64,000 bases of DNA from a virus (IMGVR_UViG_3300044644_001243:62001-126000), one strand, 5' to 3'; shown: positions 39,757 to 62,893, numbered from the stretch's first letter. Made by a program: numbers and translations. Notes: a model not told the origin generated them from the letters alone.

Positions 39757-40019
39757 TTAATGATTAATAACTTTGACAAAGTTACACATTAAATTGACTA
39801 TTGCAACAAAAAATTAAAAATAATTCACTCAAAGTTATTAACAATAAAAAAAATTGAATTGTTAATAACTTTTGCTTGCATATTAAATTTATCCTTCCTA
39901 TATTTGTAGTGTACAATTAAGGTACGTGCCGTGGGAATGGAAGAGTAGACTCCAACCTGGGTTTTATTTTTTTAATATGCAAGTTTTTTTTTAAAAAAAG
40001 TTATTAACAATTTAGTGTT
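39757..40019. repeat. Cluster of GTTATTAAC inverted sites
   Basis: Five TTAATAAC/GTTATTAA sites near 39764, 39833, 39863, 39999 and 40017. Two pairs form long inverted repeats: AAAGTTATTAACAAT with its exact complement (39831-39872), and the 39997-40030 pair. They surround the promoters of the 39160 gene, the first RNA element and the 40162 gene, as operators would. Confidence 0.55.
39911..39973 (+). ncRNA. RNA element copy 1 (CCGT/ATGG hairpin)
   Basis: Begins just after a TATATTTG box (39899-39906; TTG 20 bases upstream). Sequence: GGTACGTGCC, hairpin CCGT-GGGA-ATGG with a GNRA loop, AGAGTAGACTCC core, then AACCTGGG and a T-run that may terminate it. AGGT/ACCT could close the outer stem. 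Confidence 0.6.
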
Positions 40020-40051
40020 AATAACTTTGAAAAAAAAAAGTGAAAAAAGTT

Positions 40052-40081
40052 TTGGTTATTTAAAATTTATCCCTATCTTTG
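40052..40081 (+). promoter_or_regulatory. Host-type promoter of 40162 gene
   Basis: TTG, 19 bases, TATCTTTG (40074-40081). The stretch TTTGGTTATTTAAAA before it and the start GTATTGTTCAATTGAGG recur before the 41953 gene. Confidence 0.7.
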
Positions 40082-40161
40082 TATTGTTCAATTGAGGATA
40101 TGATATGTACTTCGGTTGGGCGTTAGTTCTTTTTTTATTTATTTTTTAATACTTTTTTGTT

Positions 40162-40485
40162 ATGAAAACATTGGTAAACATTTACGCACAAGTTGAGGAA
40201 AACTATGCTGCTCACACGTGGGATGGTCAAGGGGAATGTCCACAACATTGGAAAAAGAAAGGTGGTAAAATCTTTCAAGTCAACCTTAATGTTGATTACC
40301 TTATGTATGACGAGGAACGCTCAATAAACGCTTTCAAACGTCTGCTACAAGACGAGTCTAACGAGGGGTATCGGTATACGTATACCGAACACGAAATCGT
40401 GTGGCACGAACCTATCGTCTTGAATGACGACAAGTTCTTGGAATACGTGCACGCACAAGCACGTGACGTTGAAGTTGAGTACTAA
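40162..40485 (+). CDS. Unknown protein
   Basis: 107 residues, acidic, with HTWDGQGECPQHWKKKGG near the N-terminus. No family is recognised. Transcribed from the promoter at 40052-40081 with an 80-base leader ending in TTTTTGTT-ATG, and closed by a terminator. Confidence 0.6.
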   Translation: MKTLVNIYAQVEENYAAHTWDGQGECPQHWKKKGGKIFQVNLNVDYLMYDEERSINAFKRLLQDESNEGYRYTYTEHEIVWHEPIVLNDDKFLEYVHAQARDVEVEY

Positions 40486-40487
40486 AT

Positions 40488-40503
40488 GTACAGAAATCTG
40501 TCC
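40488..40503. repeat. GTACAGAAATCTGTAC palindrome, copy 1
   Basis: One-mismatch copy (GTACAGAAATCTGTCC) of a 16-base palindrome also found at 42328-42343 and 50379-50394. Confidence 0.5.
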
Positions 40504-40530
40504 ATAGGGTTATACCTTATGGACTTTTTT
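40500..40530 (+). terminator. Terminator after 40162 gene
   Basis: GTCCATA/TATGGAC stem with T-run. It overlaps the first GTACAGAAATCTGTCC site (40488-40503). Confidence 0.82.
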
Positions 40531-40615
40531 CGTTTATATTAATTTTTTTTTGGTTAGGGTATTGTGGGAATCAAAATTAATGTTATCTTTGTAGGGTAAT
40601 TCAAAATCGTTCTTT

Positions 40616-40834
40616 ATGTTACGTGTAGTTGTAAGACAAGTTGGAAATTGTCTATTAGTTAGGGAAGGTGAAAAATTCTTTGCCGAACAAGTTGGAAATG
40701 ACGTTAGGGCTGACATACCAAAAGTTAAGTATGAACGTCTAAAGATTGAATCTGACGACTTATTTGAGTATCTAATACCTATGCTTATTAGAAACGAAAT
40801 TAGTCGTCCTATCTTTGAAAAATTGGGGGTTTAA
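40616..40834 (+). CDS. Small unknown protein
   Basis: 72 residues, no recognised motif. Promoter TTG (40562-40564), 19 bases, TATCTTTG (40584-40591), 24 bases before the ATG. A terminator overlaps the stop (GGGG/CCCC with T-run, 40824-40852). Confidence 0.6.
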   Translation: MLRVVVRQVGNCLLVREGEKFFAEQVGNDVRADIPKVKYERLKIESDDLFEYLIPMLIRNEISRPIFEKLGV

Positions 40835-40861
40835 AAATCCCCTTTTTTATTTAGTATAGTT

Positions 40862-40936
40862 CGTTCACGTATGGACGTGTCGGAGTCTACTCTCTCACTT
40901 TGCTTAGCGACTTGTCTCGACTATCAATCATTGACA
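40862..40936 (-). ncRNA. RNA element copy 2, minus strand variant
   Basis: Promoter on the minus strand: TTG (40968-40970), 20 bases, TATCTTTG (40940-40947). Transcript: GTCGAGACAAGT, hairpin CGCT-AAGCAA-AGTG, AGAGTAGACTCC core, CACGTCCATACGTG hairpin. The GTCGAG start can pair with CTCCGAC, in place of the outer stem of the plus-strand copies. Confidence 0.6.
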
Positions 40937-41072
40937 AAACAAAGATAGATAATAGAAATGATATATGCAAACAATTATTAAAAATAATTTTATTTTTTTT
41001 TTCGTTAAGGTATTGTGGGAATGAAAAAAAGTATTATCTTTGTAATAAGTTATTCATTTAAATTTTTTCCTT

Positions 41073-41492
41073 ATGTCACACATTATTTCATCTTCGGCTC
41101 TTTTTTCAGTTATCAAGGCTGAAAAAAACAATAGTGGTTCTGATTTCACTATTAAGTCTATTGCTACGGGCAAAGACTACACGTATGCTATCTCTCGTTC
41201 TAAATTTAAGGGCAATTGGTACACGCATATTAGCGTTGAACAAGAGTACCAAAAATTCGTTCGTTTGGGGTCTTATTTCAAGGGTAAGATTTACCAAAAA
41301 GGGCAAGTGGTTAACTCGCCATCGGCAACAGCAATTTGTTGGGTGCTTGAAAGGGTTGAACAAAGCAAGTTCGACTTGTTGGATGAGAAGGTTCAAGTTA
41401 TGCATACGGGCAATTGCATACGTTGTGGACGCACGTTAACGGACGCACAATCCATCGAACGTGGGTTAGGTCCGACTTGTGCAAGTCTTTAA
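41073..41492 (+). CDS. DUF6011-type zinc-site protein
   Basis: 139 residues. The C-terminal CIRCGRTLTDAQSIERGLGP followed by TC (Cys115, Cys118, Cys136) is the DUF6011 signature. The N-terminal part is beta-rich. Function unknown. Promoter TTG (41013-41015), 19 bases, TATCTTTG (41035-41042); terminator at 41503-41530. Confidence 0.78.
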   Translation: MSHIISSSALFSVIKAEKNNSGSDFTIKSIATGKDYTYAISRSKFKGNWYTHISVEQEYQKFVRLGSYFKGKIYQKGQVVNSPSATAICWVLERVEQSKFDLLDEKVQVMHTGNCIRCGRTLTDAQSIERGLGPTCASL

Positions 41493-41502
41493 CCGACTGA
41501 AA

Positions 41503-41530
41503 AGGGTTCATTAAATGAACTCTTTTTTTT
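41503..41530 (+). terminator. Terminator after DUF6011 gene
   Basis: GGGTTCATT/AATGAACTC stem followed by eight T. Confidence 0.82.
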
Positions 41531-41550
41531 ATTGGCATACGTTAAAAAAG

Positions 41551-41621
41551 TATAGACGTGTCGGAGTCTAGTCTTTTGCTTTGGTTAGCAACTTGTCTCG
41601 ATTATCAATCATTGACAATAC
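41551..41621 (-). ncRNA. RNA element copy 3, minus strand variant
   Basis: Minus strand, after a GATATTTG box (41621-41628). Hairpin TTGCT-AACCAA-AGCAA differs from copy 2 (CGCT/AGTG) but keeps pairing. The core reads AGACTAGACTCC. It shares ATTGTCAATGATTGATA at its 5' end with copy 2. Confidence 0.58.
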
Positions 41622-41659
41622 AAATATCGTAATTAGATTTTAGATATGCAAGAAAAAAG

Positions 41660-41865
41660 TGAATTATTTTTAAATTATTTTTTGCTCTTATTTTAATTCG
41701 TTTTAAGACGTTTTAAAGTTGTTTTGGTATTATGTATTGGTTTAGTATTTAAAGTTTATTACAAGCAACAATACAAGCAAAAAAAGAATAAGAATAGTAT
41801 AAAGATTAATGTTATAAATAAGATTAGATAGGAATAAAAAAAAATAAAAAAAGATTAAAAAATGT
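41660..41865. other. AT-rich gene-free stretch
   Basis: About 200 bases of A/T-rich sequence between the start of RNA copy 3 and the promoter of the 41953 gene. I see no open frame, repeat or hairpin of note. Confidence 0.5.
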
Positions 41866-41952
41866 TTGGTTATTTAAAAATTATGTTTATCTTTGTATCG
41901 TCCAAATGAGGGACAAAAGTTCTTTTTCTTACTTATTTTTTTTCTTTTTGTT

Positions 41953-42213
41953 ATGGAAGCAAATTGTTTTCACGGAACTGATACGTATGGACGTTCAGTT
42001 CAAGTTGGTATACGTCAAGATGGCGTTGCATTCTTCAGAACATATCGTTATAACGGCTATGGTATGGGAATGACCAAATGGGAAATGTTGAACGATTACG
42101 TTCACCAACCATACAAAAGTTCGTCTGCCGTTTATGGCGAAAAGACTCACATCAAGTGGGGCTTTAACGAACTCACTGGGTATACCAACCCAAGAATGAG
42201 ACTACCAAAGTAG
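41953..42213 (+). CDS. Small unknown protein
   Basis: 86 residues, aromatic- and glycine-rich (GYGMGMTKWEML). The ATG at 41953 is chosen because a TATCTTTG box (41886-41893) lies inside any longer frame. Leader GTATCGTCCAAATGAGG resembles that of the 40162 gene. Terminator at 42195-42227. Confidence 0.6.
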   Translation: MEANCFHGTDTYGRSVQVGIRQDGVAFFRTYRYNGYGMGMTKWEMLNDYVHQPYKSSSAVYGEKTHIKWGFNELTGYTNPRMRLPK

Positions 42214-42227
42214 TCTCATTTTTTTTT
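42195..42227 (+). terminator. Terminator after 41953 gene
   Basis: AATGAGACTA-ccaaag-TAGTCTCATT followed by a T-run; overlaps the stop codon. Confidence 0.85.
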
Positions 42228-42327
42228 GTCTTATAATTTACTTATTGTAAGTATTATTATTCAAACATTATATTTTTTATTTGATAACAACTAATTGATT
42301 AAATTAGGGGGTGTGGTGGCAACCAAT

Positions 42328-42343
42328 GTACAGAAATATGTAC
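42328..42343. repeat. GTACAGAAATCTGTAC palindrome, copy 2
   Basis: One-mismatch copy (GTACAGAAATATGTAC), preceded by GGGGGTGTGG and GGCAACCA. The same combination occurs, inverted, near 50340-50394. Confidence 0.5.
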
Positions 42344-42368
42344 ATAGGTCGCACCTACCATTTAGTTA

Positions 42369-42665
42369 TTAATTTACATCAATTAAATTTCCGTCCCATT
42401 CAACATCATTCAGAAACCATTTACCTTTGGTTTGATTTATTTTTACGTTAGGTAAACCATTTAACCTTTCTTTTGTTGTTGCCGTTTCATACCCACAATT
42501 AGTAATTGATAAGGTTCTTTCGGGGTCGTTGTATTGATAAGCGATTGCGTTGCCAAATAGTTTTAGTATTGTTACGTTAGGCAAAACTTCTACACTTGTG
42601 TTACCATTTTTAAAAGTTTCAGCATTTAAAAACTTTTCGATTGCTTTTTCAGTAATTGTTCTCAT
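42369..42665 (-). CDS. Unknown protein
   Basis: 98 residues, beta-rich, asparagine-rich, no recognised motif. Promoter: TATCTTTA on the minus strand (42690-42697), -33 in the loop of the inverted repeat at 42706-42735. Confidence 0.5.
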   Translation of the reverse strand: MRTITEKAIEKFLNAETFKNGNTSVEVLPNVTILKLFGNAIAYQYNDPERTLSITNCGYETATTKERLNGLPNVKINQTKGKWFLNDVEWDGNLIDVN

Positions 42666-42705
42666 TGTGTTTATGTTTATTTGTTTATGTAAAGATAGTA
42701 AATAT

Positions 42706-42735
42706 AAATGGTACTACCAAACGATAGTACCATTT
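42706..42735. repeat. Inverted repeat spanning a -33 box (long-arm class)
   Basis: AAATGGTACTA/TAGTACCATTT with TTTGG of the 42369 promoter in the loop. It also lies just after the stop of the 42749 gene, so it may end that transcript. Confidence 0.65.
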
Positions 42736-42748
42736 ATTTTAATTTATT

Positions 42749-43132
42749 TTATACGTGTAGTGAATATGCTATTATCATATAAACACTATCTTCGACTTCA
42801 TCTAAATTTAGATTTTCACCTATATAATATTCTTTACCTTTCCATTTTATACATTTGTGGTCGTCCATCATTAGTTCAACATAGTGGTCTGATTCATTTT
42901 CATCAACTTCAATACCATAAGTTTCGATAAACGAATTAACTTCACTATCTTTGACTAAATCATAGTCCAATGTATATTGATTGATATACTCAAAACAATC
43001 TTCAATAGTGTTGATTGGTGCGATTCTAAATTTATCGTCATTAGCGATTAAATTAACTTTGTCAATCAATTCTTGTTTAGAATTTAATGTTGCAAGTTCT
43101 TTGTTTTTCTTTGTGTCGATTAAAGTATACAT
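42749..43132 (-). CDS. Unknown acidic protein
   Basis: 127 residues, acidic, with DDHKCIKWKGKEYYIGENLN. No family is recognised. -7 box at 43154-43161 (TATCTTTA on the minus strand). Confidence 0.5.
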   Translation of the reverse strand: MYTLIDTKKNKELATLNSKQELIDKVNLIANDDKFRIAPINTIEDCFEYINQYTLDYDLVKDSEVNSFIETYGIEVDENESDHYVELMMDDHKCIKWKGKEYYIGENLNLDEVEDSVYMIIAYSLHV

Positions 43133-43194
43133 AGTATTAATTATTTGTTTCCGTAAAGATAGTGAATAGTTTTGACTTATGCAAGTTTATTTGT

Positions 43195-43548
43195 TTATAT
43201 TTCGTTATCATTATCTACCAAACATTTGTCCATTAATTCAATTAAATTAATTCTATCCTCTATTGATAAATCCCACATTTTAATTGAATGTTTTGTAAAT
43301 TTTCCGTCTGCCGTTACTACTTCAATATCGTAGTAATTACCAACTTTAAGAACTTTTAGTGGGTGTACATCAAATACGTTGCCCGTTTCTTTATCTCTAA
43401 TTTCTAGGTAATTATCGGGTGTGTCATTTTCTAAATCTTTTTCATCAAAGATAACAAATTCTTTTTGTTGATATAACATTTCCTCGAATGTCATTTGGAT
43501 ATGTGTTTTTAAAACATCTATATCTCTTTTTAAAGCACTTATTCTCAT
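43195..43548 (-). CDS. Unknown protein, paralog of next gene
   Basis: 117 residues. DLENDTPDNYLEIRDKETGN followed by VFDVHPLKV matches DLEHDTPDDYLEMRNDITGN plus VFDVHPLKV in the 43627 protein: a tandem duplication. Function unknown. Hairpin promoter at 43580-43610. Confidence 0.6.
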   Translation of the reverse strand: MRISALKRDIDVLKTHIQMTFEEMLYQQKEFVIFDEKDLENDTPDNYLEIRDKETGNVFDVHPLKVLKVGNYYDIEVVTADGKFTKHSIKMWDLSIEDRINLIELMDKCLVDNDNEI

Positions 43549-43579
43549 TTTAGTTTATTTTAATTGTTTATTTATACAA

Positions 43580-43610
43580 CAAAGATATGGATAAGTTTTC
43601 ACTTATCCAA
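43580..43610 (-). promoter_or_regulatory. Hairpin promoter (GGATAAGT stem)
   Basis: Minus strand TTTGGATAAGTGAAAACTTA...: TTTG, a perfect GGATAAGT-GAAA-ACTTATCC inverted repeat, then TATCTTTG. It lies just before the 43627 stop's downstream side, so it can terminate that gene and start the 43195 gene. Confidence 0.7.
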
Positions 43611-43626
43611 ATCTTTTTATAGTTTT

Positions 43627-43950
43627 TTACAAACTATTTTCCATTAATTCTATTAGGGTAATTTTGTCTTGTGTGCTTGATAAATCTTGCAACTTAATCA
43701 AGTGTCTTACAAAACTTCCGTCTGCTTCAACTACAAGTATTCCATTTTGGGTTACTTTTAGTGGGTGGACATCAAACACGTTTCCCGTAATATCATTACG
43801 CATTTCAAGGTAATCATCGGGTGTGTCGTGTTCTAAATCACATTCATCAAAGATTACTATTTCTTCTTGTTTCTCCAACAACTCATTAAAGTAGTGGTAA
43901 ACTTGTTTTTCTAATTGTTCTAAATCTTTGTTTAAGTTTTTGCTTGACAT
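43627..43950 (-). CDS. Unknown protein, paralog of 43195
   Basis: 107 residues from the ATG at 43950, chosen because the promoter (43978-44008) lies inside the longer frame. Strong similarity to the 43195 protein in the central acidic segment and the VFDVHPLKV motif. Function unknown. Confidence 0.6.
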   Translation of the reverse strand: MSSKNLNKDLEQLEKQVYHYFNELLEKQEEIVIFDECDLEHDTPDDYLEMRNDITGNVFDVHPLKVTQNGILVVEADGSFVRHLIKLQDLSSTQDKITLIELMENSL

Positions 43951-43977
43951 AATATAAGTTTTAAATTGTTTGTTTAA

Positions 43978-44008
43978 CAAAGATAAGCATAATGTTTTGA
44001 TTATGCAA
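43978..44008 (-). promoter_or_regulatory. Hairpin promoter (GCATAAT stem)
   Basis: TTTGCATAATCAAAACATTA...: GCATAAT/ATTATGC arms between TTTG and TATCTTTG. The 44011 gene ends three bases away, so the hairpin can serve as its terminator. Confidence 0.68.
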
Positions 44009-44010
44009 AT

Positions 44011-44250
44011 TTATTTTGCACAATCTTTACATAAATCTACATCATCACCAAATACCATTTCATCACGTGTAAACCCACCACCACAATTTTGACAACAAAA
44101 TGTAGGTTCTTCATCCAACCATTCAACTACTCTTTTGACTACATCAACTAAATCACTTTCATCGTCAAATTCTGCGTGTTCATTATTGTCTGCGTGTTGC
44201 TCAATAATGATTTTAAATACTCTCTCTAAATTTTCTAATGTGCATTCCAT
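44011..44250 (-). CDS. Small zinc-ribbon protein
   Basis: 79 residues from 44250 (ATG-GAA-TGC), because a TATATTTG box (44276-44283, TTG 20 bases away) lies inside the longer frame. CCQNCGGGF and LCKDCAK form two CxxC pairs. Function unknown. Confidence 0.55.
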   Translation of the reverse strand: MECTLENLERVFKIIIEQHADNNEHAEFDDESDLVDVVKRVVEWLDEEPTFCCQNCGGGFTRDEMVFGDDVDLCKDCAK

Positions 44251-44390
44251 AATATATTGTTTTAAAGTTATACTACAAATATAAGCATTGAATCTTGTTG
44301 CCACAACATACTATAATTAGCATTTAATTTTTTTTAAATTATTTTCATTTTTGTGTTGGATATATCAAAATTATTTCTATCTTTGTTATG

Positions 44391-44441
44391 TCAGTAAGAC
44401 GTGCTACGAGAGTAGAAGAGTAGACTCCGTTGCGTGTATAT
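44391..44441 (+). ncRNA. RNA element copy 4
   Basis: After TATCTTTG (44378-44385). GACGTG, hairpin CTAC-GAGA-GTAG, AAGAGTAGACTCC core, then GTTGCGTG. The outer pairing is weak here (ACGT/GCGT). GGCAACC occurs twice downstream (44473-44497). Confidence 0.62.
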
Positions 44442-44543
44442 GTTTCGTGTGTGCGTTACTGCATAAAAAAAGTGGCAACCATTCGGCAACCACTTCCTCG
44501 TTATAATCAAAACACTAAACAAACACAATTTAGTTTTTTGCGT

Positions 44544-44575
44544 TGATTGAAACCCCATAATAGATTTCAATCAAC
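44544..44575 (-). terminator. Terminator-like inverted repeat
   Basis: GTTGATTGAAA/TTTCAATCAAC, 11-bp arms, downstream of the 44588 stop on the minus strand. No strong T-run. Confidence 0.5.
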
Positions 44576-44587
44576 ATTATTTCTTTA

Positions 44588-44734
44588 TCATACATAATCC
44601 TCTTGCATTAACTTGTTAATATAATTCTTTTTATGTTTATCTTTGCGTTGAAACGCTTTTTTAGACTTGTGAACACTACTCTTTAATGCTTGTTGCATTT
44701 CGTGCTGGGTTAAGGTTATTTCTTTAAATTTCAT
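44588..44734 (-). CDS. Small basic protein
   Basis: 48 residues, lysine- and glutamine-rich (SSVHKSKKAFQRKDKHKKNY). It overlaps the end of the 31-residue gene upstream by 11 bases (stop and start intertwined), forming a two-gene unit. It could bind nucleic acid. Confidence 0.5.
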   Translation of the reverse strand: MKFKEITLTQHEMQQALKSSVHKSKKAFQRKDKHKKNYINKLMQEDYV

Positions 44735-44819
44735 TTCTTTTATCTAAATAATTACACACTAATTTGATTACTGCTAATCCTCCTAATAAGATTCCTAAAT
44801 AAACGATTTTGCCTAACAT
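44724..44819 (-). CDS. 31-residue membrane peptide
   Basis: MLGKIVYLGILLGGLAVIKL gives one hydrophobic segment, followed by a short charged tail. It directly follows a hairpin promoter (44848-44878) and is coupled to the 44588 gene. Probably an inner-membrane peptide of unknown role. Confidence 0.45.
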   Translation of the reverse strand: MLGKIVYLGILLGGLAVIKLVCNYLDKRNEI

Positions 44820-44847
44820 AACTTTTTGTTTTAATTTGTTTGTGAAA

Positions 44848-44878
44848 CAAAGATAAGGATAATCTTTCGATTATCCAA
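44848..44878 (-). promoter_or_regulatory. Hairpin promoter (GGATAATC stem)
   Basis: GGATAATC-GAAA-GATTATCC between TTTG and TATCTTTG. Compared with the ATAAGT stems, both arms have changed together. Confidence 0.7.
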
Positions 44879-44896
44879 ATCTTTTTTTAAAATGTT

Positions 44897-45517
44897 TTAG
44901 TTATTTTCTAATAACTTTACAACCCCATTAGGTAATTCGTTATCAGTACCATCTAAAATCAACACTACATCAGTTCTCATAAAGTCTTTGATATAAACAT
45001 AGTTGCCATTAACTCTGCCAAACTTTTGTGCGTTTTGTGGTGTACTTTCCCCATTGTCGCCATCTTGGTATTTCTCTCTGACAAATACTCTATTATCAAC
45101 AACAACTATTTCACCAACATCACCAACTTCCTCACCACTATATTCTACCACTCCATTAAGGACATAACCATTCGGTGCTAGAATTTTGTGAATAAGATAA
45201 ACTAACCATTCAGTATAGTTATAAAACTTCTCACCACAATCCCACTCAATACCCATTCGGTCATCGCTAGGTGTCCATTGATTCCAAAGACTTGGTTGAG
45301 TGCTTGGTGGCTCATTAAAATCTACTACATTGTCTTCGTGGTCTTGTCCAAAACTTCCACCACCAAATACGTAAAACTCACCTTGTACTCCAAACACTTC
45401 ATCAGTGTTTCTTTCCATTCTGCGTGTTTCGTTGAACAATTTTAAGTATTGTTCCATCTTTGGACTTAACTCCTTGTTAAGTTCAAATCTACCACTAAAA
45501 TCAGTTGTGTAACCCAT
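44897..45517 (-). CDS. Unknown conserved-looking protein
   Basis: 206 residues, starts MGYTTDFSGRFELNKELSPK, and contains GIEWDCGEKFYNYTEWLVYL. I associate this N-terminal pattern with uncharacterised phage proteins but cannot name a family. Promoter -7 box at 45547-45554. Confidence 0.6.
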   Translation of the reverse strand: MGYTTDFSGRFELNKELSPKMEQYLKLFNETRRMERNTDEVFGVQGEFYVFGGGSFGQDHEDNVVDFNEPPSTQPSLWNQWTPSDDRMGIEWDCGEKFYNYTEWLVYLIHKILAPNGYVLNGVVEYSGEEVGDVGEIVVVDNRVFVREKYQDGDNGESTPQNAQKFGRVNGNYVYIKDFMRTDVVLILDGTDNELPNGVVKLLENN

Positions 45518-45656
45518 TGTAATTTGTTTTATTGATTAATACCTTACAAAGATAAACATTCTTTTTTAATTTCCTACTATATTGTGAAAAATAAATAAAT
45601 TATTTTTTTTTACTTTTTTTGTTGCACAAGTCAATATTATTACTATCTTTGTTATG

Positions 45657-45717
45657 TACGATTAAGGTACGTGCTGCGAGAGTAGAAGAGTAGACTCCAA
45701 CACGTCCATACGTGAAC
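45657..45717 (+). ncRNA. RNA element copy 5
   Basis: After TTG (45622-45624), 19 bases, TATCTTTG (45644-45651). GGTACGTGC, hairpin CTGC-GAGA-GTAG, AGAGTAGACTCC core, AACACGTCCATACGTGAAC. ACGTG/CACGT closes the outer stem; CACGT-CCAT-ACGTG is an alternative hairpin using the same bases. Confidence 0.66.
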
Positions 45718-45755
45718 AAAATAAAAATGAAAAAACAAAGTTGTATAAATAGGAA

Positions 45756-45782
45756 TTGGGAATAGGTAAACCCTATTCCCAA
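45756..45782 (+). ncRNA. Perfect hairpin downstream of RNA copy 5
   Basis: TTGGGAATAGG/CCTATTCCCAA, 11-bp arms, five-base loop, no T-run. It lies in a 440-base gene-free stretch. Confidence 0.5.
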
Positions 45783-45839
45783 CAACACCTCTAACGAAAC
45801 ATTCCTCTAAGTCATTTACAATATGAAAGGTTTGTCAAA

Positions 45840-45949
45840 GCATAATTAGTGATAAACAATACGGAAAGGGGAACTAATTATGCAATGATGTATCGTTACC
45901 AAGTCTACGAGGTTCAGCAGAGTATTTTCCTCTCATATAAACCCTTTCC
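45840..45949 (+). ncRNA. Candidate structured RNA with pseudoknot
   Basis: GCATAATTAGT (45840-45850) pairs with ACTAATTATGC (45873-45883). Its loop holds GGAAAGGG (45863-45870), complementary to CCCTTTCC (45942-45949). Between lies GAGG/CCTC. Strand unknown; the plus strand would extend from RNA copy 5. No protein frame is credible here. Confidence 0.4.
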
Positions 45950-45958
45950 TACTATATT

Positions 45959-46879: not shown

Positions 46880-47014
46880 AATGTTTTGTTTTAATGATTA
46901 TAGTACAAATATAAACATTCTTTTTTAATTGTGCAACATTTTATATAAAATAAAAATAAAATTATTTTTACTTTTTTCTTGCATAATTGATTTATAATTC
47001 CGATATTTGTTATG

Positions 47015-47076
47015 TCAATGATTCAGACGTGCTACGAGAGTAGAAGAGTAGACTCCAACACGTCCATACGTGAACA
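47015..47076 (+). ncRNA. RNA element copy 6
   Basis: After GATATTTG (47002-47009). GACGTG, CTAC-GAGA-GTAG, AGAGTAGACTCC, CACGTC closing GACGTG (6 bp), then ACGTGAAC and GGCAACC. The terminator of the convergent 47117 gene follows and could stop it too. Confidence 0.66.
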
Positions 47077-47091
47077 ACGGCAACCAATAAA

Positions 47092-48719: not shown

Positions 48720-48860
48720 TGTGTTTTATTTTAATTGATTAATACCCTACAAAGATAAACATTATTTTTAATTCTGCAACTATTTTGTAATAAAATAAAA
48801 ATAAAATTATTTTCACTTTTTGCTTGCATATGTCAAATATTATTGCAATCTTTGTATTGT

Positions 48861-48920
48861 ACAATTAAGGTACGTGCTGCGAGAGTAGAAGAGTAGACTC
48901 CGACACGTCTATACGTGAAC
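48861..48920 (+). ncRNA. RNA element copy 7
   Basis: After AATCTTTG (about 48847-48854; TTG in TTGCATATG upstream). Same form as copy 5: GGTACGTGC, CTGC-GAGA-GTAG, AGAGTAGACTCC, GACACGTC, then ACGTGAACGGCAACC. Confidence 0.65.
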
Positions 48921-48932
48921 GGCAACCAACCA

Positions 48933-48960
48933 TAAAAAAAAGGTGACACTACTGCCACCC
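48933..48960 (-). terminator. Terminator overlapping the 48949 stop
   Basis: GGTG/CACC stem followed on the minus strand by eight T; lies just after RNA copy 7. Confidence 0.65.
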
Positions 48961-49224
48961 TTGTTTAGTTATTTTAGGTTTACCATTAATTTTTTCCCAC
49001 TTCTCAAACCATTCTCCCCATTCACCACGTCTGCTACGTGAAACAAAAACTGGGTCTTCACCAATATGATTATCCAAAATATAATCTTTTAATGCTTTCT
49101 TTAATTCAGTATAAGTATTGAATTTCTTTGTTGTGTATTCAGTTCTTACACCATATCTTTCTACTCTGTAATCGTGTAGACTTTCACTTGTCATATACGT
49201 TACTTGTGGTTTAAAATTTGCCAT
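48949..49224 (-). CDS. Small basic protein
   Basis: 91 residues, basic, with FVSRSRRGEWGEWFEKWEKI. No family is recognised. -7 box at 49249-49256. Confidence 0.5.
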   Translation of the reverse strand: MANFKPQVTYMTSESLHDYRVERYGVRTEYTTKKFNTYTELKKALKDYILDNHIGEDPVFVSRSRRGEWGEWFEKWEKINGKPKITKQGWQ

Positions 49225-49748: not shown

Positions 49749-49850
49749 TGCTTGTTAATTTAGATTGTTTTGCAAATATAAGAAAAACTTTTTAAATAAA
49801 AAAATTTATTTTACTTGTTTTTTAAAAATATTATTACAATCTTTGTATTG

Positions 49851-49906
49851 TCGGTGGACGTGCTACAAGAGTAGAAGAGTAGACTCCGTCACGCCCATAT
49901 GCGAAC
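49851..49906 (+). ncRNA. RNA element copy 8
   Basis: After AATCTTTG (about 49839-49846). GGACGTG, hairpin CTAC-AAGA-GTAG, AGAGTAGACTCC, CACGCC. GG(A)CGTG/CACG-CC keeps the outer stem despite base changes. Confidence 0.62.
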
Positions 49907-49990
49907 GTTATGAAATTATTTAGAATGAATATAAATAACAAAATTATTTTGTTATGTGAAAAATAATGATTACTTTTGTCCCTTGAATAA

Positions 49991-53688: not shown

Positions 53689-53789
53689 AACTTTTAATTT
53701 AATTTGTTTCAACAAAGATAATAAATCTTTTTTAAATAAAAAAACTTTTTTTGTTAGGATATTAATTTTTTTTATCTTACATTTGTAAG

Positions 53790-53849
53790 GTCAATCAGTT
53801 AGACGTGCCGTGGGAATGGAAGACTAGACTCCAACACGTCCATACATTG
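53790..53849 (+). ncRNA. RNA element copy 9
   Basis: After TACATTTG (53778-53785). GACGTG, CCGT-GGGA-ATGG, AGACTAGACTCC, CACGTC (closing 6 bp), then GGCAACC. The core has C for G (GACTAG), as in copy 3. Confidence 0.64.
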
Positions 53850-53860
53850 GCAACCATACC

Positions 53861-55960: not shown

Positions 55961-55969
55961 TTAATAATT

Positions 55970-56499: not shown

Positions 56500-56541
56500 A
56501 AGTTCTATGTTTTATTTGTTATAACAAAGATAGTAAAAAGA

Positions 56542-56569: not shown

Positions 56570-56577
56570 ATTTTAAA

Positions 56578-57417
56578 TTATTTTTCTACTTTTTCTAATT
56601 CCTTTTGTATTGTTGCAACCAACTCAAAGTTTTCATTTGCCAACGCAATCTCTTTAAATCGTTCCAACACATTCCTTGCATAGCCACAATCCTCGGTTGG
56701 CATATAATCTCTATCGTATGCAATTTCAATCATTGAATTTGTAAACTTTGATAATTCCTCGTCTTCATCTACATCACAAAAATCATCACCTAAATAATAG
56801 TCTTCACCACCTTGAATATTAAGAGCCATTTCGTATGCTTCACGTGTGCCACCTTCGGGTACATTTTCTTCAATTTCAACTCCACCTACCAAAGTATAAG
56901 TTCCTACATTGTAACCAAAGTCTTCATCAGCATATTCAACTTCAATACGTGCTTCGGGATATTTTTCAGATAGTTTTAAAAATAAGTTGAAAGGTGTACT
57001 CCACGCAGTATTAAAACTTACACTCTCATTATCATCACTCCAATACACATCACTTGCGTTCCACTTTGTACCCCAATTACTAATTTGCCACCCATACCAA
57101 TCAGCATAACCAAATCGTTCAATAAAATCATCGTGCATTTCTTTTGTAATACCTCTCGATACTCCAAAACGTACTTCACTTTCCGTTAATTCACCTTTGG
57201 TAATACGTTCCTCTTGTATATCGTATTCCTCTTGTGTAATAATGCGACAAGGACTTGTTGTACCTACCAATTCAGTTGGTATTGGTGCAATTTGATTAAA
57301 ATCAAATTCTTTGTCTTCACCATTACTATATGGTGTTCCTTTTACTTCTTCTCTAATCTTTGCTAATAAAGTTTCATCAGCAATGATTCTTACGTTGTTT
57401 GTAATCCAGTTTGGCAT
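56578..57417 (-). CDS. Api92/YubB-like protein
   Basis: 279 residues. Start MPNWITNNVRIIADETLLAK and YGWQISNWGTKWNASDVYWS plus FNTAWSTPFNLFLKLSEKYP are the typical signatures of the YubB ferredoxin-like family (Api92-like), found on phages and plasmids, function unknown. The acidic C-terminal 90 residues are an extension. -7 box TATATTTG at 57448-57455. Confidence 0.78.
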   Translation of the reverse strand: MPNWITNNVRIIADETLLAKIREEVKGTPYSNGEDKEFDFNQIAPIPTELVGTTSPCRIITQEEYDIQEERITKGELTESEVRFGVSRGITKEMHDDFIERFGYADWYGWQISNWGTKWNASDVYWSDDNESVSFNTAWSTPFNLFLKLSEKYPEARIEVEYADEDFGYNVGTYTLVGGVEIEENVPEGGTREAYEMALNIQGGEDYYLGDDFCDVDEDEELSKFTNSMIEIAYDRDYMPTEDCGYARNVLERFKEIALANENFELVATIQKELEKVEK

Positions 57418-57480
57418 AACTATTTATTTTTATTGATTAATACACTACAAATATAATTACTATTTTTGTTAATTCCAAAT

Positions 57481-57693
57481 TTATAACATAGAAATTATAA
57501 CTTTTATAAAAGATTTTTTAAAACCTCTTTCTTTCAATTCTCTCCATACGTGGTCGTCATCTAATAACTCACACTCTGCTTGGATTCTACCATTAAAGTA
57601 AATGTCAATTACGTAACCATTCGGATTGTAATATACTTTTACTTTTGTTAACCCTTTTTCAATTTGTCCTAAATAAACTTTTTCTTCACTCAT
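57481..57693 (-). CDS. Small unknown protein
   Basis: 70 residues, mixed, no recognised motif (KVKVYYNPNGYVIDIYFNGR). Hairpin promoter at 57716-57746. Confidence 0.5.
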   Translation of the reverse strand: MSEEKVYLGQIEKGLTKVKVYYNPNGYVIDIYFNGRIQAECELLDDDHVWRELKERGFKKSFIKVIISML

Positions 57694-57715
57694 AATGTTT
57701 TGTTTTAATGTTTAT

Positions 57716-57746
57716 CAAAGATAAGCATAAGTTTTCACTTATGCAA
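57716..57746 (-). promoter_or_regulatory. Hairpin promoter (GCATAAGT stem)
   Basis: GCATAAGT-GAAA-ACTTATGC (57725-57744), TTTG and TATCTTTG; identical stem to 47529, 58986 and 62117. Confidence 0.75.
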
Positions 57747-57764
57747 ATCTTTTTTAAAAATGTT

Positions 57765-58142
57765 TTATATTATTTTATATAAACCAAAATCAACACTACC
57801 AATTTGTTCATACTTTTGATTATCCACTACTTCACCATTTAACAACCAATTTGGTTGCACCCTTGGATTGTATTTAATTCTATGACAATAGGTATCAAGT
57901 TGTAAAAACTTATTTGTGTTAATCACAATTGATTCACACAATACCCACGCACACACAACTTTTTCACCCCCATTATAAATCTTTTCAGCGACTTTCTTAT
58001 GGTTGCCTAACTGACAATTCACCATCACCAATTGAGTGCTTGTAGGGTCATAATATTCAACTTCACCATTAGGGTATTGAACTTTCCATTTCATAAAGTT
58101 CTTACCTCTACCTAAATTGAATCTAACTTTAATTCGTTTCAT
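57765..58142 (-). CDS. Small basic protein
   Basis: 125 residues, basic, with FNLGRGKNFMKWKVQYPNGE. No family is recognised. -7 box at 58167-58174, 25 bases before the ATG. Confidence 0.5.
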   Translation of the reverse strand: MKRIKVRFNLGRGKNFMKWKVQYPNGEVEYYDPTSTQLVMVNCQLGNHKKVAEKIYNGGEKVVCAWVLCESIVINTNKFLQLDTYCHRIKYNPRVQPNWLLNGEVVDNQKYEQIGSVDFGLYKII

Positions 58143-58278
58143 AATCGTTTGTTTAATTGTTCTCTACAAAGATAGTAATTATTTCCATTCCCACAACACT
58201 TTTATTAAAAAAAAATAAAATTATTTTTTTTGCTATTTTACTTGCATATGTCAATTATTATTGCAATCTTTGTATTGT

Positions 58279-58336
58279 CAAGTTAGACGTGCCGTGGGAA
58301 TGGAAGAGTAGACTCCAACGTGCCTTTTATTTTTTT
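58279..58336 (+). ncRNA. RNA element copy 10
   Basis: After AATCTTTG (about 58265-58272; TTG in TTGCATATG upstream). GACGTGCC, CCGT-GGGA-ATGG, AGAGTAGACTCC, AACGTGCC, then a T-run that probably terminates it. Confidence 0.64.
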
Positions 58337-58344
58337 ACACGCAC

Positions 58345-58368
58345 AAAAAAAGTGGGTCACCCCACTTT
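58345..58368 (-). terminator. Terminator overlapping the 58357 stop
   Basis: AAAGTGGG/CCCACTTT with seven T on the minus strand. Confidence 0.78.
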
Positions 58369-58683
58369 GCGATAGTTTAATGGATAACCCCTATCAGTCC
58401 AACAAACGTTACCATAGGTAAATTCGTTTATATCTGCGTTCTCAACCATTGTAAGATAATATTGGTATGCTATATCCATAGACTCTTTTTTAGTCGTTTG
58501 TGGGGGATAAAACGCAAACATATTTTCTTTTGGGTGTCCATAAAATACTATGTAGATTTTATTCCCTCTGCTACCATATTGGTGTGCGTCTGCAATACTC
58601 TTAAACTTTGTAAAAGATACTGCTTTGTTATTCACTATTAACCCTAATAGTTCTAACTTGTTTCTTACTTCACTTGGTGTCAT
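58357..58683 (-). CDS. Unknown protein
   Basis: 108 residues, basic, with FYGHPKENMFAFYPPQTTKK. No family is recognised. It starts four bases after the 58687 stop, so the two form a unit. Confidence 0.5.
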   Translation of the reverse strand: MTPSEVRNKLELLGLIVNNKAVSFTKFKSIADAHQYGSRGNKIYIVFYGHPKENMFAFYPPQTTKKESMDIAYQYYLTMVENADINEFTYGNVCWTDRGYPLNYRKVG

Positions 58684-58686
58684 AAT

Positions 58687-58950
58687 CTAAATTCCTTTTT
58701 CAATTACAAAATAACCATATTTGTATGGTTGTGTACCATAGTCAATGTCGCCCATATCAACGATGTCTTCTCCGTCCTCGGTTTCGTGTACCGATACAAC
58801 TTGATACTCTTCCGTATCAAATTCTTTCACCCTATCAATTTCTTCGGGGTGTAAAAAAAGATAGTCACCATATTCTACACTATCCTCTTCTGCCACTACC
58901 AATCCACCACCATACTTTGCGAAAAATTCTGTCTTTGTCATTGTTGCCAT
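58687..58950 (-). CDS. Small acidic protein
   Basis: 87 residues from the ATG at 58950; the longer frame contains the -7 box (58977-58984). Acidic, no recognised motif. First gene of a pair with 58357. Confidence 0.5.
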   Translation of the reverse strand: MATMTKTEFFAKYGGGLVVAEEDSVEYGDYLFLHPEEIDRVKEFDTEEYQVVSVHETEDGEDIVDMGDIDYGTQPYKYGYFVIEKGI

Positions 58951-58976
58951 AACTCTTATTGTTTTTGTTTGTGAAA

Positions 58977-59007
58977 CAAAGATAAGCATAAGTTTTCACT
59001 TATGCAA
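58977..59007 (-). promoter_or_regulatory. Hairpin promoter (GCATAAGT stem)
   Basis: GCATAAGT-GAAA-ACTTATGC (58986-59005) between TTTG and TATCTTTG. Confidence 0.75.
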
Positions 59008-59025
59008 ATCTTTTTTTAATTTATT

Positions 59026-59334
59026 TTACCAACGAATATAAACATAATAACTCGGACTGCAAATAACAACTTTGAATCCTTTTTCTTCAAGGTAAGGTTT
59101 CATTTTGGTTTCAACCAATCTTTGTAGATTGCTATCATCAAATAATTCACCAACTACTTTGTTGTGTGTATCATCATTTTGATAACTACCAATGGACAAT
59201 TCATTTTTTTTCCATTTTTCTGCCACGTTAACCATTCTTGGAAAAAGTACTTCATTGTATACTCTGTCAAACTTTGGTCTATCAATATCTTTAACTTCAG
59301 ATATTAAACTTTTTAATTTTGCGATGTCATTCAT
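59026..59334 (-). CDS. Small unknown protein
   Basis: 102 residues from the ATG at 59334; the longer frame contains the -7 box (59362-59369). Helical N-terminal half. No named family. Confidence 0.5.
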   Translation of the reverse strand: MNDIAKLKSLISEVKDIDRPKFDRVYNEVLFPRMVNVAEKWKKNELSIGSYQNDDTHNKVVGELFDDSNLQRLVETKMKPYLEEKGFKVVICSPSYYVYIRW

Positions 59335-59361
59335 AATATTAGTTTTAATTTGTTTGTGAAA

Positions 59362-59392
59362 CAAAGATAAGGATAATATTTCGATTATCCAA
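59362..59392 (-). promoter_or_regulatory. Hairpin promoter (GGATAAT stem)
   Basis: GGATAAT/ATTATCC arms with a short loop, TTTG and TATCTTTG. Confidence 0.66.
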
Positions 59393-59415
59393 ATCTTTTG
59401 TTATTTTATTTTAAA

Positions 59416-59832
59416 TTATTTTGGTGCAACACAATTATACAATAAGTTCTCCACAATCAATTCCCACGTTGCCGTTTTGTCTTCCTCTGCTTCACTATCG
59501 TAGTATTTTAATACTTCGTTAATCTCTGCAATACTCGGATTCATTTTTAAATCCATAGCAACCCTTACAACGTCTTCAACACTAATTTGTTTTGTTAAGA
59601 TTTCTTCTTCGTCAAACTCACTATTATTTTGGCAACCCTCATACCATAAATCGGGACAATCAGATAAATCCATTACTGACTTGCAACACGCACATTCAAT
59701 TTCAGAATCCATTCTATCGTGTAATAATACACTACCACAATTTCCACACGTTACAATATTAATACTTGCTACTGCATTAACTCTGTTTTGTAACTCAATT
59801 TGTTTTTCTGCTAATTCTCTTTTAGTTTTCAT
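59416..59832 (-). CDS. Zinc-ribbon protein
   Basis: 138 residues. TCGNCGSVL and IECACCKSVMDLSD (about 33-60) form a four-cysteine zinc site; the C-terminal 80 residues are acidic and helical. Function unknown. -7 box at 59855-59862. Confidence 0.6.
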   Translation of the reverse strand: MKTKRELAEKQIELQNRVNAVASINIVTCGNCGSVLLHDRMDSEIECACCKSVMDLSDCPDLWYEGCQNNSEFDEEEILTKQISVEDVVRVAMDLKMNPSIAEINEVLKYYDSEAEEDKTATWELIVENLLYNCVAPK

Positions 59833-59873
59833 AATGTTTGTTTTTGATTACAATACAAATATAGTAAAAATAA

Positions 59874-59904
59874 AATAACCTACCAAATATTTGATAGGTT
59901 ATTT
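59874..59904. repeat. Inverted repeat spanning a -33 box (long-arm class)
   Basis: AATAACCTA/TAGGTTATT with CCAAATATTTG in the loop. Confidence 0.65.
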
Positions 59905-59915
59905 TTAAATTATTT

Positions 59916-60353
59916 TTAATTTCTTCTTCTTGGAAAAAACCCTTGGTCGGGGTCACCTAAACTACAAGTCTCCAAATCTTCATACGTACCTTTGAATGAA
60001 GCTGAAACTAATTTTAAAGGGTATTTAAGTTTTAATATTTGTTCATCGTAACAACCAATGTCAATACCTTTACTTCTATTGTAATCAGTATGTTCATCAA
60101 TTTGTTTCATCAATGGATATTCACCCTCAAATTTCAAATCCTCTGCATTGTTCCAAAATGCTAATAGTTCATACATATCGTATTTAGGTTCACCACTAAT
60201 TTCTTTTGTTCCTAGTTCACCATAATCTTGATAGTAATCTTTGATAAACCCACCACCAAATTCTTTTGGTATTAAGAATTTAAAAGGTGTACCATAAGCA
60301 ACATTTTCAGTGTTCGTTAATTCATCTGCTTTGTTCCAACTAAAACTTCCCAT
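59916..60353 (-). CDS. Unknown protein
   Basis: 145 residues, with FKFLIPKEFGGGFIKDYYQD and a C-terminal RRRN. No family is recognised. -7 box TATATTTG at 60376-60383. Confidence 0.5.
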   Translation of the reverse strand: MGSFSWNKADELTNTENVAYGTPFKFLIPKEFGGGFIKDYYQDYGELGTKEISGEPKYDMYELLAFWNNAEDLKFEGEYPLMKQIDEHTDYNRSKGIDIGCYDEQILKLKYPLKLVSASFKGTYEDLETCSLGDPDQGFFPRRRN

Positions 60354-60386
60354 AATCTTTATTTTTAATGTTTAACAAATATAAGA

Positions 60387-60423
60387 ATAATAATCCAATC
60401 TACCAAATATAAATTGGATTATT
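60387..60423. repeat. Inverted repeat spanning a -33 box (long-arm class)
   Basis: Same 11-bp arms AATAATCCAAT/ATTGGATTATT as at 55925-55960, with CTACCAAATATAA in the loop. Confidence 0.7.
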
Positions 60424-60429
60424 ATTAAA

Positions 60430-60624
60430 TTATTTGTTGTACTTATCTTTTAAGAAATTTTCCATACATTCGTATTCACCTTTGGTGTCAACATTGAATT
60501 TGCTTTTGTCATACTCATCATATAAACTTGGCAAATCATCCCATTGCTCGTCATAACAAGCGTCAGCAAATTCCTTGTCATAAAATTTGATAAGGTTGCT
60601 AAATAAATACATACTATAATCCAT
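60430..60624 (-). CDS. Small acidic protein
   Basis: 64 residues from the ATG at 60624; the -7 box TATATTTG (60655-60662) lies in the longer frame. Acidic (KEFADACYDEQWDDLPSLYD). No family. Confidence 0.5.
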   Translation of the reverse strand: MDYSMYLFSNLIKFYDKEFADACYDEQWDDLPSLYDEYDKSKFNVDTKGEYECMENFLKDKYNK

Positions 60625-60714
60625 AGGTTCTAAAGTTTTAATTGGTTTGTTTAACAAATATAAGAATAAAGATTGGATAAACAATAACATTCATCCAATC
60701 TTTTTAATTTTATT

Positions 60715-61554
60715 TTAAACTAATTTACCTTGGTTACTCAAAATTCGTTTCTCTTCCAACAAATCTTTTGTATTACTTTCAGTACTACTCATTATTAGTT
60801 GCCTTAACATTTGGTCTTCCATACCAACTTCCTTTAAGATATACTGCATAGTTTCTCCGTCAACATCAATTACTTTTAACTTCGCAATAATGTCTTTTAC
60901 AATATTATGGTTATCATCTGAATAACATAAAAAAGTTGGTACACTTGGTAACTCAAAGTCTTCTTTAAACATATCTCTAAAATAGCCACCATTTTGTTGG
61001 TTATTTGCTTTTTCATCCAACCATTCAACTTTAACACAATTATCGTTACTTTCGTGTTCCGTTGTATAGTCTTCGGTTACTCTCGCTTTAGCACCACCAT
61101 TAACACTATAATATTGTCTTGTTTCTTTCCACTCAACAATACTATCTTTTGGTATTAATACCTTTGGTTCTTCCTTGGGTAATGTTGCAACATATTCTGC
61201 TACACTTCTAGGTTTAAATTTATCCTCTATTTCTTCTTTTGGTTCTTCGAATAAACCATACCAATTACACTCTATTGGTTCATTAATGGTTAAATCTAAT
61301 GCAATGTTAATATCAGTAACACTTCTTTGTAGTATCTCTACATTATCATACCCAATACTTTCTTCCAATTTAACTTGATTAGTAAATAGTATCTCGTGAC
61401 TATCAACATTAGTACGTTTAACACATTCAATACGTTTTTCAACTTCTGCTATCTTATCAGACAAATCTGTCAACGCCATATCAACTTCATCACCTATTTG
61501 ATACAAGTCCCAACGTTTTAAAGTTTCTACTAAATTGTTAAATTCATTTCTCAT
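60715..61554 (-). CDS. Unknown acidic protein
   Basis: 279 residues from 61554; the -7 box (61578-61585) lies in the longer frame. Acidic, with a helical first 90 residues, a central SVAEYVATLPKEEPK and a C-terminal helical segment. No family is recognised. Longest unknown gene of this array. Confidence 0.55.
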   Translation of the reverse strand: MRNEFNNLVETLKRWDLYQIGDEVDMALTDLSDKIAEVEKRIECVKRTNVDSHEILFTNQVKLEESIGYDNVEILQRSVTDINIALDLTINEPIECNWYGLFEEPKEEIEDKFKPRSVAEYVATLPKEEPKVLIPKDSIVEWKETRQYYSVNGGAKARVTEDYTTEHESNDNCVKVEWLDEKANNQQNGGYFRDMFKEDFELPSVPTFLCYSDDNHNIVKDIIAKLKVIDVDGETMQYILKEVGMEDQMLRQLIMSSTESNTKDLLEEKRILSNQGKLV

Positions 61555-61592
61555 AATATTTGTTTTTAATTGTTTCAACAAAGATAAATAAA

Positions 61593-61862
61593 CTATTTCA
61601 ATTTTCCAAATTTATTTTCAAATTTCTTACTTACCCAACTATAATTCCCACTTGCAAAAATTTCCATTATCTCATTATCAACATAATCACCCTCGGCAAT
61701 TAGATTCATAACCCTATTATGTTTTTTAGCAAATAATTTTTTATCTTTGTGGTCGCCCATTGGATAAAAATAAATGTGTGTACTTGTTTCTAATACCCTC
61801 TCGTATTTTATATCGTCAGTACTACGTAAACAACTTTTAACTATTTTCATAACATTAATCAT
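61593..61862 (-). CDS. Small unknown protein
   Basis: 89 residues, mixed charge, no motif. Overlaps the upstream gene by eight bases, so it is co-translated with it. Confidence 0.5.
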   Translation of the reverse strand: MINVMKIVKSCLRSTDDIKYERVLETSTHIYFYPMGDHKDKKLFAKKHNRVMNLIAEGDYVDNEIMEIFASGNYSWVSKKFENKFGKLK

Positions 61863-62085
61863 TAATATGTTCCCAACCCTCTAACTCTTCCAATTCCATA
61901 CCCATAGGTCTTAACCCATATGGTTCTGCGTCCAAATAGTAATCAAAGGTATAACCCAATGGTTCTATCTCACTCAATATCCTATCTAACTCAAAATAGG
62001 TGTTTCCACTATCCTCATCAAATGATTCCAATATTGCTTGTACTTCGTTTGGTATCAACTCTGGTGTTTCAAATAAATCTTTCAT
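61855..62085 (-). CDS. Small acidic protein
   Basis: 76 residues, very acidic (PNEVQAILESFDEDSGNTYF). No family. First of a pair with 61593; hairpin promoter at 62108-62138. Confidence 0.5.
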   Translation of the reverse strand: MKDLFETPELIPNEVQAILESFDEDSGNTYFELDRILSEIEPLGYTFDYYLDAEPYGLRPMGMELEELEGWEHIND

Positions 62086-62107
62086 AACTTTTATTGTTTT
62101 GTTTAAT

Positions 62108-62138
62108 CAAAGATAAGCATAAGTTTTCACTTATGCAA
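62108..62138 (-). promoter_or_regulatory. Hairpin promoter (GCATAAGT stem)
   Basis: GCATAAGT-GAAA-ACTTATGC (62117-62136), TTTG and TATCTTTG. Confidence 0.75.
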
Positions 62139-62145
62139 ATCTTTT

Positions 62146-62685
62146 TTAATAATTCGTAACTAATTTTAATTGATAATCATAACTGAATTTTCCGTTGTTA
62201 TGTTCATCACAACATTTAGCACAAGCATAAGTCTTTCTAATCACTTTGTGTTTTGGTGTTTCTTTACCACAACTCTCACATAACAAAGTATATTTTGATT
62301 TAGGTAAATTAACACTATCACTACTAAAACATCTTTTAGCGTCACAACCAATTTGTTTTGCAATATGTTGCCAATTGTACCCATGACCTCTTCCGTCCCT
62401 TACACCATACACGTGAACACAAAATGCGTGTGCCAATTCGTGCAACATAGTGTCAGTAATCTTTGTGTCTATTTTATCTAAATTTTCATTACATAGTGGC
62501 ATAGATAAACCAATAGTTTTTTTACCATAACTACAGCAACCAAATCTACGTTTTGCACTATCAAACTTAAACGTATAACCTAATTGTTCACCACTCAATG
62601 TATAAACCCCATGGTACGTGTTAAACGTGAATTGTTTTGTCATTAATGTTTCTGCCATTAATCTTACGTCATTTAAATTTTTCAT
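62146..62685 (-). CDS. SprT-like zinc metalloprotease
   Basis: 179 residues. LHELAHAFCVH gives H82-E-x-x-H86, with a likely third ligand H101 in GRGHGYNW, and a C-terminal zinc ribbon (CESCG at 136-140, CAKC at 155-158). This is the SprT/SPRTN arrangement. Cellular relatives cut DNA-crosslinked proteins; the phage target is unknown. -7 box at 62710-62717. Confidence 0.85.
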   Translation of the reverse strand: MKNLNDVRLMAETLMTKQFTFNTYHGVYTLSGEQLGYTFKFDSAKRRFGCCSYGKKTIGLSMPLCNENLDKIDTKITDTMLHELAHAFCVHVYGVRDGRGHGYNWQHIAKQIGCDAKRCFSSDSVNLPKSKYTLLCESCGKETPKHKVIRKTYACAKCCDEHNNGKFSYDYQLKLVTNY

Positions 62686-62820
62686 TGTGTTTTGTTTTAT
62701 TGTTCCCTACAAAGATAAACATTATTTTTAATTCTGCAACTATTTTGTGAGAAAATAATTATTTTTTTTTATGCAACAAAAGTTTGTTTTTTAAATATAT
62801 TATCCCTACCTTTGTTTTGT

Positions 62821-62893
62821 TGGTGGTGATAACCGAAACGGGTCGAGGGAAATCTTGAAAGAGTAGACTCCAACCTACCTTATATTTTTTTTA
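62821..62893 (+). ncRNA. RNA element copy 11, divergent
   Basis: After TACCTTTG (62807-62814). GTTGG start can pair with CCAAC. Hairpin CGAGG-GAAA-TCTTG, then AAAGAGTAGACTCCAACC. The hairpin sequence differs fully from other copies but keeps the GNRA loop. Confidence 0.6.

Follow-up and report, generated by a model that had tools for sequence, protein, structure and literature searches.

A candidate family of folded small RNAs carried by otherwise unrelated phages

The 64,000-nt stretch analysed here, hereafter the window, is one strand of part of a virus record of 128,170 bases (IMGVR_UViG_3300044644_001243:62001-126000). An initial annotation of this DNA had described eleven short elements with a common core, each with a hairpin and placed after a promoter, and all eleven are present as exact matches to the core AGASTAGACTCC; allowing up to two mismatches adds none, with a chance expectation of 2.6, and none of the shuffles attains 11. 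These elements belong to a structured RNA family whose covariation exceeds a phylogenetic null, the pairs of one helix, P2, carrying the signal. Judged by comparison of sequences, this looks like one previously undescribed family of folded small RNAs of phages, and the comparison supports the family itself, the pairing of P2, the conservation of the core, and the positions of promoter, leader hairpin and tail. The reading that we favour, with evenly balanced confidence, is that they are autonomous small RNAs of the phage acting in trans, which would dock on a conserved host component and most likely occupy or inhibit it.

Helices and core

The consensus that emerges from the comparison would be a three-way junction formed by P1, a P2 of variable sequence, and P3 with the core, GRG-UAGA-CUCC, where P3 consists of three GRG/CUC pairs with a near-invariant UAGA loop. 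G-U pairs are tolerated in all three helices. The hairpin of the initial annotation is of the P2 type, and the forms given there are all found (CTAC-GAGA-GTAG, CTGC-GAGA-GTAG, CCGT-GGGA-ATGG, CGAGG-GAAA-TCTTG, CGCT-AAGCAA-AGTG and TTGCT-AACCAA-AGCAA); what that account overlooked were the conserved P3 mini-hairpin, a 5' leader hairpin (P0), the U-tract with which some family members end, and how widely the element occurs among phages. GNRA loops, to which it drew attention, are a trait of the lineage of the source phage and not of the whole family, and the outer GACGTG/CACGTC stem, clear in roughly half of the source-phage copies, is weak in the rest of the family.

Patterns derived from the element match many other IMG/VR contigs, and 143 of the loci fetched carry the element with a scorable hairpin. 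When 48 elements of constant spacing were aligned blind to pairing, column pairs of P2 ranked 1, 2, 3 and 5 in covariation, and RNAalifold recovered P2 and P3 unaided from an alignment of 64 diverse ungapped element sequences. The three-helix structure has a covariation score of 0.358; shuffles score 0.189, with 0/500 reaching the observed value, and slid versions of the structure do not exceed 0.147. Compensatory change had been claimed as a sign of selected RNA structure, and an R-scape-like check bears this out: with columns simulated independently on a FastTree tree and change counts matched, the P2 pairs at columns 15-27, 13-29, 14-28, 10-31 and 16-26 were unequalled in 150 nulls, and a sixth, at columns 17-25, reached E=0.04. 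The five highest-ranking pairs in the entire alignment all lie within P2, whose junction-closing pair is C-G in 54 sequences, U-A in 10 and never broken, although the choice of anchor favoured pairing at this site. A covariance model built from other phages only, with zero window sequence (R1), recovers 12 of the 13 copies of the source phage, with E from 5e-14 to 0.02.

The core is equally distinctive. A scan that left its 12 positions unconstrained returned 26 elements, 24 of them with AGAGTAGACTCC and one each with AGAGTGGACTCC and AGAGTAGACCCC. Elsewhere we can distinguish a type 2 subtype (GGUUCG...CGCAG-AGGGUAGACUCC) and a type 3 subtype (AAAGCA...UGAGAAGUAGACUCC), plus lone variants that include UAUACUCC and UGGUCUCC; (G)UAGACUCC is almost constant across all subtypes. 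Three other accounts of the sequence were set aside: an alternative P3 pairing of GGA/UCC in place of GAG/CUC, which many copies do not keep; a pseudoknot between the P2 loop and the tail, seen by eye in a few sequences and not kept in the source phage; and a coding sequence, which the single-base changes in P2 length reject.

The view that no known class can be assigned also held. Rfam 15 gave no match in the window at the gathering threshold, and in scans at relaxed E-values, covering the element region and 11 other carriers, no match above gathering overlaps an element. A MicX match at 48791-48975 (33 bits against a gathering value of 75, on the opposite strand) is AT-rich noise. The literature yielded no paper describing the element, and matches to the core sequence were unrelated oligonucleotides; catalogues beyond Rfam and the open literature could hold it.

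Promoter, leader and tail

Of 213 elements, 110 are preceded by a TAnnTTTR box; the corresponding counts are 24 for the reversed sequence and 13 for the reverse complement. Where a copy has a promoter, no more than about 60 nt separate it from the element. In Flavobacterium psychrophilum, the TAnnTTTG box has been mapped at -12 to -5 (PMC9723704), and +1 was accordingly set five bases 3' of the -7 box. By this measure all 11 predicted RNAs in the window begin with GT, and the plus-strand starts proposed at the outset coincide with the box-derived +1 or differ by at most 2 bases. The same annotation had placed a TAnnTTTG box before every copy; the strict form precedes 6 of the 11, the remaining five having GATATTTG or AATCTTTG. 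The initial view, of RNA elements that are driven by promoters and contain a hairpin under selection, is supported.

Leaders are themselves often able to pair. Of 88 leaders, 45 contain a stem of four or more Watson-Crick pairs, against 16.7 expected; such a stem starts between +1 and +3 in 24 of 76, where 4.9 would be expected. At the other end, a run of at least five T follows soon 3' of the core in 40 of 109 promoter-bearing copies, beginning 10-14 nt past the core in 38 of these 40, whereas A-runs are scattered. Moreover, elements stand tail to tail in the Tenacibaculum phage Larrie (L214, 16963+/17029-) and in the carriers L134 (9543+/9610-), L232 (12756+/12823-) and L005 (8777+/8872-), with 43-72 nt between cores, which leaves room for little beyond the junction. 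The pairs of L134, L232 and L005 each join one element of either subtype. Promoter, leader hairpin, U-tract and tail-to-tail arrangement thus argue for a self-contained short RNA.

Some observations on the surroundings of promoters can be added here. In eleven gene promoters of the window, a perfect palindrome of 6-9 bp with a GAAA/AAAA-type loop sits exactly between the -33 TTTG and the TTATCTTTG box (all on the minus strand, at 43610, 44008, 44878, 46247, 46517, 47550, 48042, 57746, 59007, 59392 and 62138). Its sequence varies while its pairing is kept, as in GCATAAGT-GAAA-ACTTATGC and GGATAATC-GAAA-GATTATCC, and its role could possibly be that of an operator, of a hairpin promoter, or of a terminator and promoter in one. 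Two variant RNA elements in the carrier G008 have a promoter of this same palindrome type. Carriers of a marine type (such as L126, L137, L152 and L163) have a repeated long hairpin, AAAAGTGTGACATTAGCCT...AGGCTAATGTCACACTTTT, 5' of the element, and recurrent GTATAGCAC motifs (reverse complement GTGCTATAC) in their genomes.

Occurrence, proposed action and alternatives

By core pattern, 25 other phage records hold 1-13 copies each, and the covariance model finds matches in all 22 records searched, among them two isolates: Larrie, with 4 copies (16963+, 17029-, 18812+ and 19444+), and the Flavobacterium phage vB_FspM_immuto, with 1 variant copy. The bacterial genomes searched are almost devoid of the element. 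When 84,980 species genomes of bacteria and archaea were scanned with the pattern, one contig matched, and R1, run on 297 genomes belonging to the phylum of that contig, had matches in two, one being the same 27-kb phage-like contig (3 copies, small open reading frames (ORFs), one PHROG family) and the other falling within an ORF. This near-absence makes it a phage element and not a host RNA. The carriers, mostly uncultured and otherwise unrelated, probably infect Bacteroidota; for the source phage itself, this phylum is deduced from the host-type promoter and the two isolates, and not from a host link of its own. The ten carrier genomes compared have no protein family that all of them share, the broadest, thymidylate synthase, reaching seven, so that a common phage partner protein was rejected and the target would probably be encoded by the host. 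The simplest account of an RNA found in otherwise unrelated phages is that it acts on some conserved feature of their hosts.

According to the favoured reading, each element would be its own small-RNA gene, and the RNA polymerase of the host would read it from a promoter of host type. The predicted RNA, of about 60-75 nt, would in many copies start with the P0 hairpin at the 5' end or within 2 bases of it, continue into the junction of P1, P2 and P3 and, in roughly one in three of the copies with a promoter, end in a U-tract directly 3' of P1'. Multiple copies would raise the dose of an RNA acting in trans, and the conserved junction with the core GUAGACUCC would dock on a conserved bacterial component, most likely occupying or inhibiting it. 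Transcription and termination of the RNA, its action in trans and its role as decoy or inhibitor are inferred. More tentatively, Bacteroidota phages that are unrelated to one another may share an extensive, undescribed class of RNA effectors, divided into three or more core subtypes, and may deploy them in several copies so as to take over or incapacitate a single conserved part of the host.

Known RNA effectors encoded by phages are few, Bacteroidota phages are poorly studied, and a folded RNA with a near-invariant core, in up to 13 copies, in phages with almost no common proteins points to a host target on which many phages converge. Since Larrie is a deposited isolate, expression and partner are directly testable, and the covariance model provides a marker with which phage dark matter can be mined and annotated.

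Several results weigh against this reading. Single copies are not unusually stable (z-scores from +0.8 to -1.4), and among eight folded, the three-way junction is the minimum-energy fold of the 47.0-kb copy only, so that the structural case rests on comparison. P3 gives no significant covariation in the tree-null test because it is nearly invariant, its variation amounting to A-U to G-U changes plus one break; its pairing is plausible. P1 is not significant alone against that null, and its register slides; stems of at least 5 pairs in 13 elements, against 3.2 expected, give weak support for a helix that would be real in part. In some carriers, L126, L137 and L163 among them, the element has no recognisable promoter and lies directly 3' of a terminator-like hairpin. 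Complementarity to host ribosomal RNA does not provide a target either: a 16S stretch, GGAGUCUGC, complements GUAGACUCC, yet in a comparison covering 16S and 23S of two operons shuffled cores matched equally well (98/200 and 123/200), and this pairing was discarded.

A first alternative, which we consider improbable, is that the element acts in cis, as an antiterminator or attenuator at the start of a transcript that alters elongation by the same polymerase. Phage HK022 put is a promoter-proximal structured RNA of this kind, acting in cis on downstream genes by antitermination, and the element resembles it in being structured and close to the promoter. The arrangement of neighbouring genes speaks for this reading in the marine-type group, where many copies lie between co-directional genes, some of them with no visible promoter, and a cis role is conceivable wherever carrier neighbours are co-directional; gene orientation in the other carriers as a whole is mixed. 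In the source phage, by contrast, the upstream neighbour is divergent in 12 of 12 scorable copies and 12 of 13 copies have a downstream neighbour that runs against the RNA, which leaves no sense gene to control in cis. Unlike put, the RNA is directed away from genes and often seems to stop just past the structure, and the tail-to-tail pairs and the U-tracts right behind P1' leave no downstream transcript.

Action in trans could also take the form of anti-defence, in which the RNA would mimic a host immune-system RNA, either an antitoxin or a guide; we regard this version, too, as unlikely. Antitoxin RNAs of type III toxin-antitoxin systems (ToxI and kin) are likewise small structured RNAs, which sequester a protein and are organised as tandem pseudoknots beside the toxin gene. 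The elements, instead, are separate promoter-driven three-way junctions with no common neighbouring gene, and no tandem repeats beside an endoribonuclease toxin gene were found among these units spread over 26 kb, the toxin family itself not having been searched for. One report mentions that phages can carry mimics of antitoxin RNAs, and describes RNA anti-CRISPRs (Racrs) as solitary units in phages, often just downstream of promoters (PMC10651486). Short, solitary, directly 3' of a promoter, and present in phages and not in hosts, the element shares this layout, which makes Racrs the nearest functional analogy. Racrs imitate host CRISPR repeats, whereas relatives of the element in the bacterial genomes searched come down to one phage-like contig, and up to 13 diverged copies occur in one phage. 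A sequence-level copy of a CRISPR repeat or antitoxin predicts relatives in bacteria, and no such mimicry was found with R1 in the genomes of one phylum or with the pattern in the full genome set, as far as this model and this pattern reach; nor does any Rfam family match.

A self-cleaving ribozyme or RNA-processing element is a poorer candidate still. A small ribozyme would be expected to have such a size, three helices and some 12 near-invariant nucleotides, but neither the known self-cleaving models in Rfam (hammerhead and others) nor any other family there matches, and stand-alone promoters and U-tracts leave no attached cargo. Lastly, a DNA-level element, be it a protein-binding palindrome or a single-strand hairpin lying near promoters by chance, would also account for pairing and copy number, but is made very improbable by the strand-specific placement after TAnnTTTR, the tolerance of G-U and the leader hairpin starting near +1.

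Copies in the source phage

The complete virus record holds 13 copies, all at 101.9-127.6 kb, in one 26-kb block of tiny genes with dozens of small ORFs; the reversed core pattern, used as a control, has no match in this record. PHROGs assigns to the phage T4-type head and portal proteins plus a terminase, and a near-identity search of its DNA against the INPHARED collection gave no near match. The assignment of copy 3, missed by R1, rests on core, hairpin and promoter layout.

Table 1. Copies of the element in the source phage (window positions unless marked as record positions; E-values from covariance-model matches)
Copy	Predicted RNA	Strand	-7 box	Core	Model match	Features
1	39911..39977	+	39899-39906	39942-39953	39914-39973, E=6e-7	P0 GTAC-AATTAAG-GTAC at +1; U-tract 3' of P1'
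2	40858..40935	-	40940-40947	40882-40893	40862-40919, E=0.034	+1 at 40935; P2 CGCT-AAGCAA-AGTG
3	41539..41616	-	GATATTTG 41621-41628	AGACTAGACTCC 41563-41574		+1 at 41616; U-tract 3' of P1'
4	44390..44452	+	44378-44385	44417-44428	E=0.006	P1 maintained via G-U pairs
5	45656..45722	+	45644-45651	45687-45698	E=0.0017	
6	47014..47080	+	GATATTTG 47002-47009	47045-47056	E=0.0014	Minimum-energy fold P1-P2-P3
7	48859..48925	+	AATCTTTG 48847-48854	48890-48901	E=4e-4	
8	49850..49911	+	AATCTTTG 49838-49845	49876-49887	E=3e-4	
9	53790..53856	+	TACATTTG 53778-53785	AGACTAGACTCC 53821-53832	E=0.13; E=0.02 with R1	
10	58277..58340	+	AATCTTTG 58265-58272	58305-58316	E=1e-8	U-tract 3' of P1'
11	62819..62895	+	TACCTTTG 62807-62814	62860-62871	E=3e-13	P0 TTGGT-GGTGATA-ACCGA; P2 with GAAA loop; U-tract
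12	record position 126066 (beyond window)					
13	record position 127579 (beyond window)					

Two further observations concern the surroundings of the copies. A conserved motif resembling TTTAGAATGAATATAAATAAC, perhaps a promoter or operator, lies 3' of several elements (at 49918-49940 in the window, and in the carriers L014 and L082). A DUF932 gene on the minus strand (62991-63875) is flanked on both sides by RNA elements, at 62860 and at record position 126066, and is likewise flanked in G008 and G020, by the elements at 4110/5356 in L253 and 12749/13983 in L263, making three phages in all.

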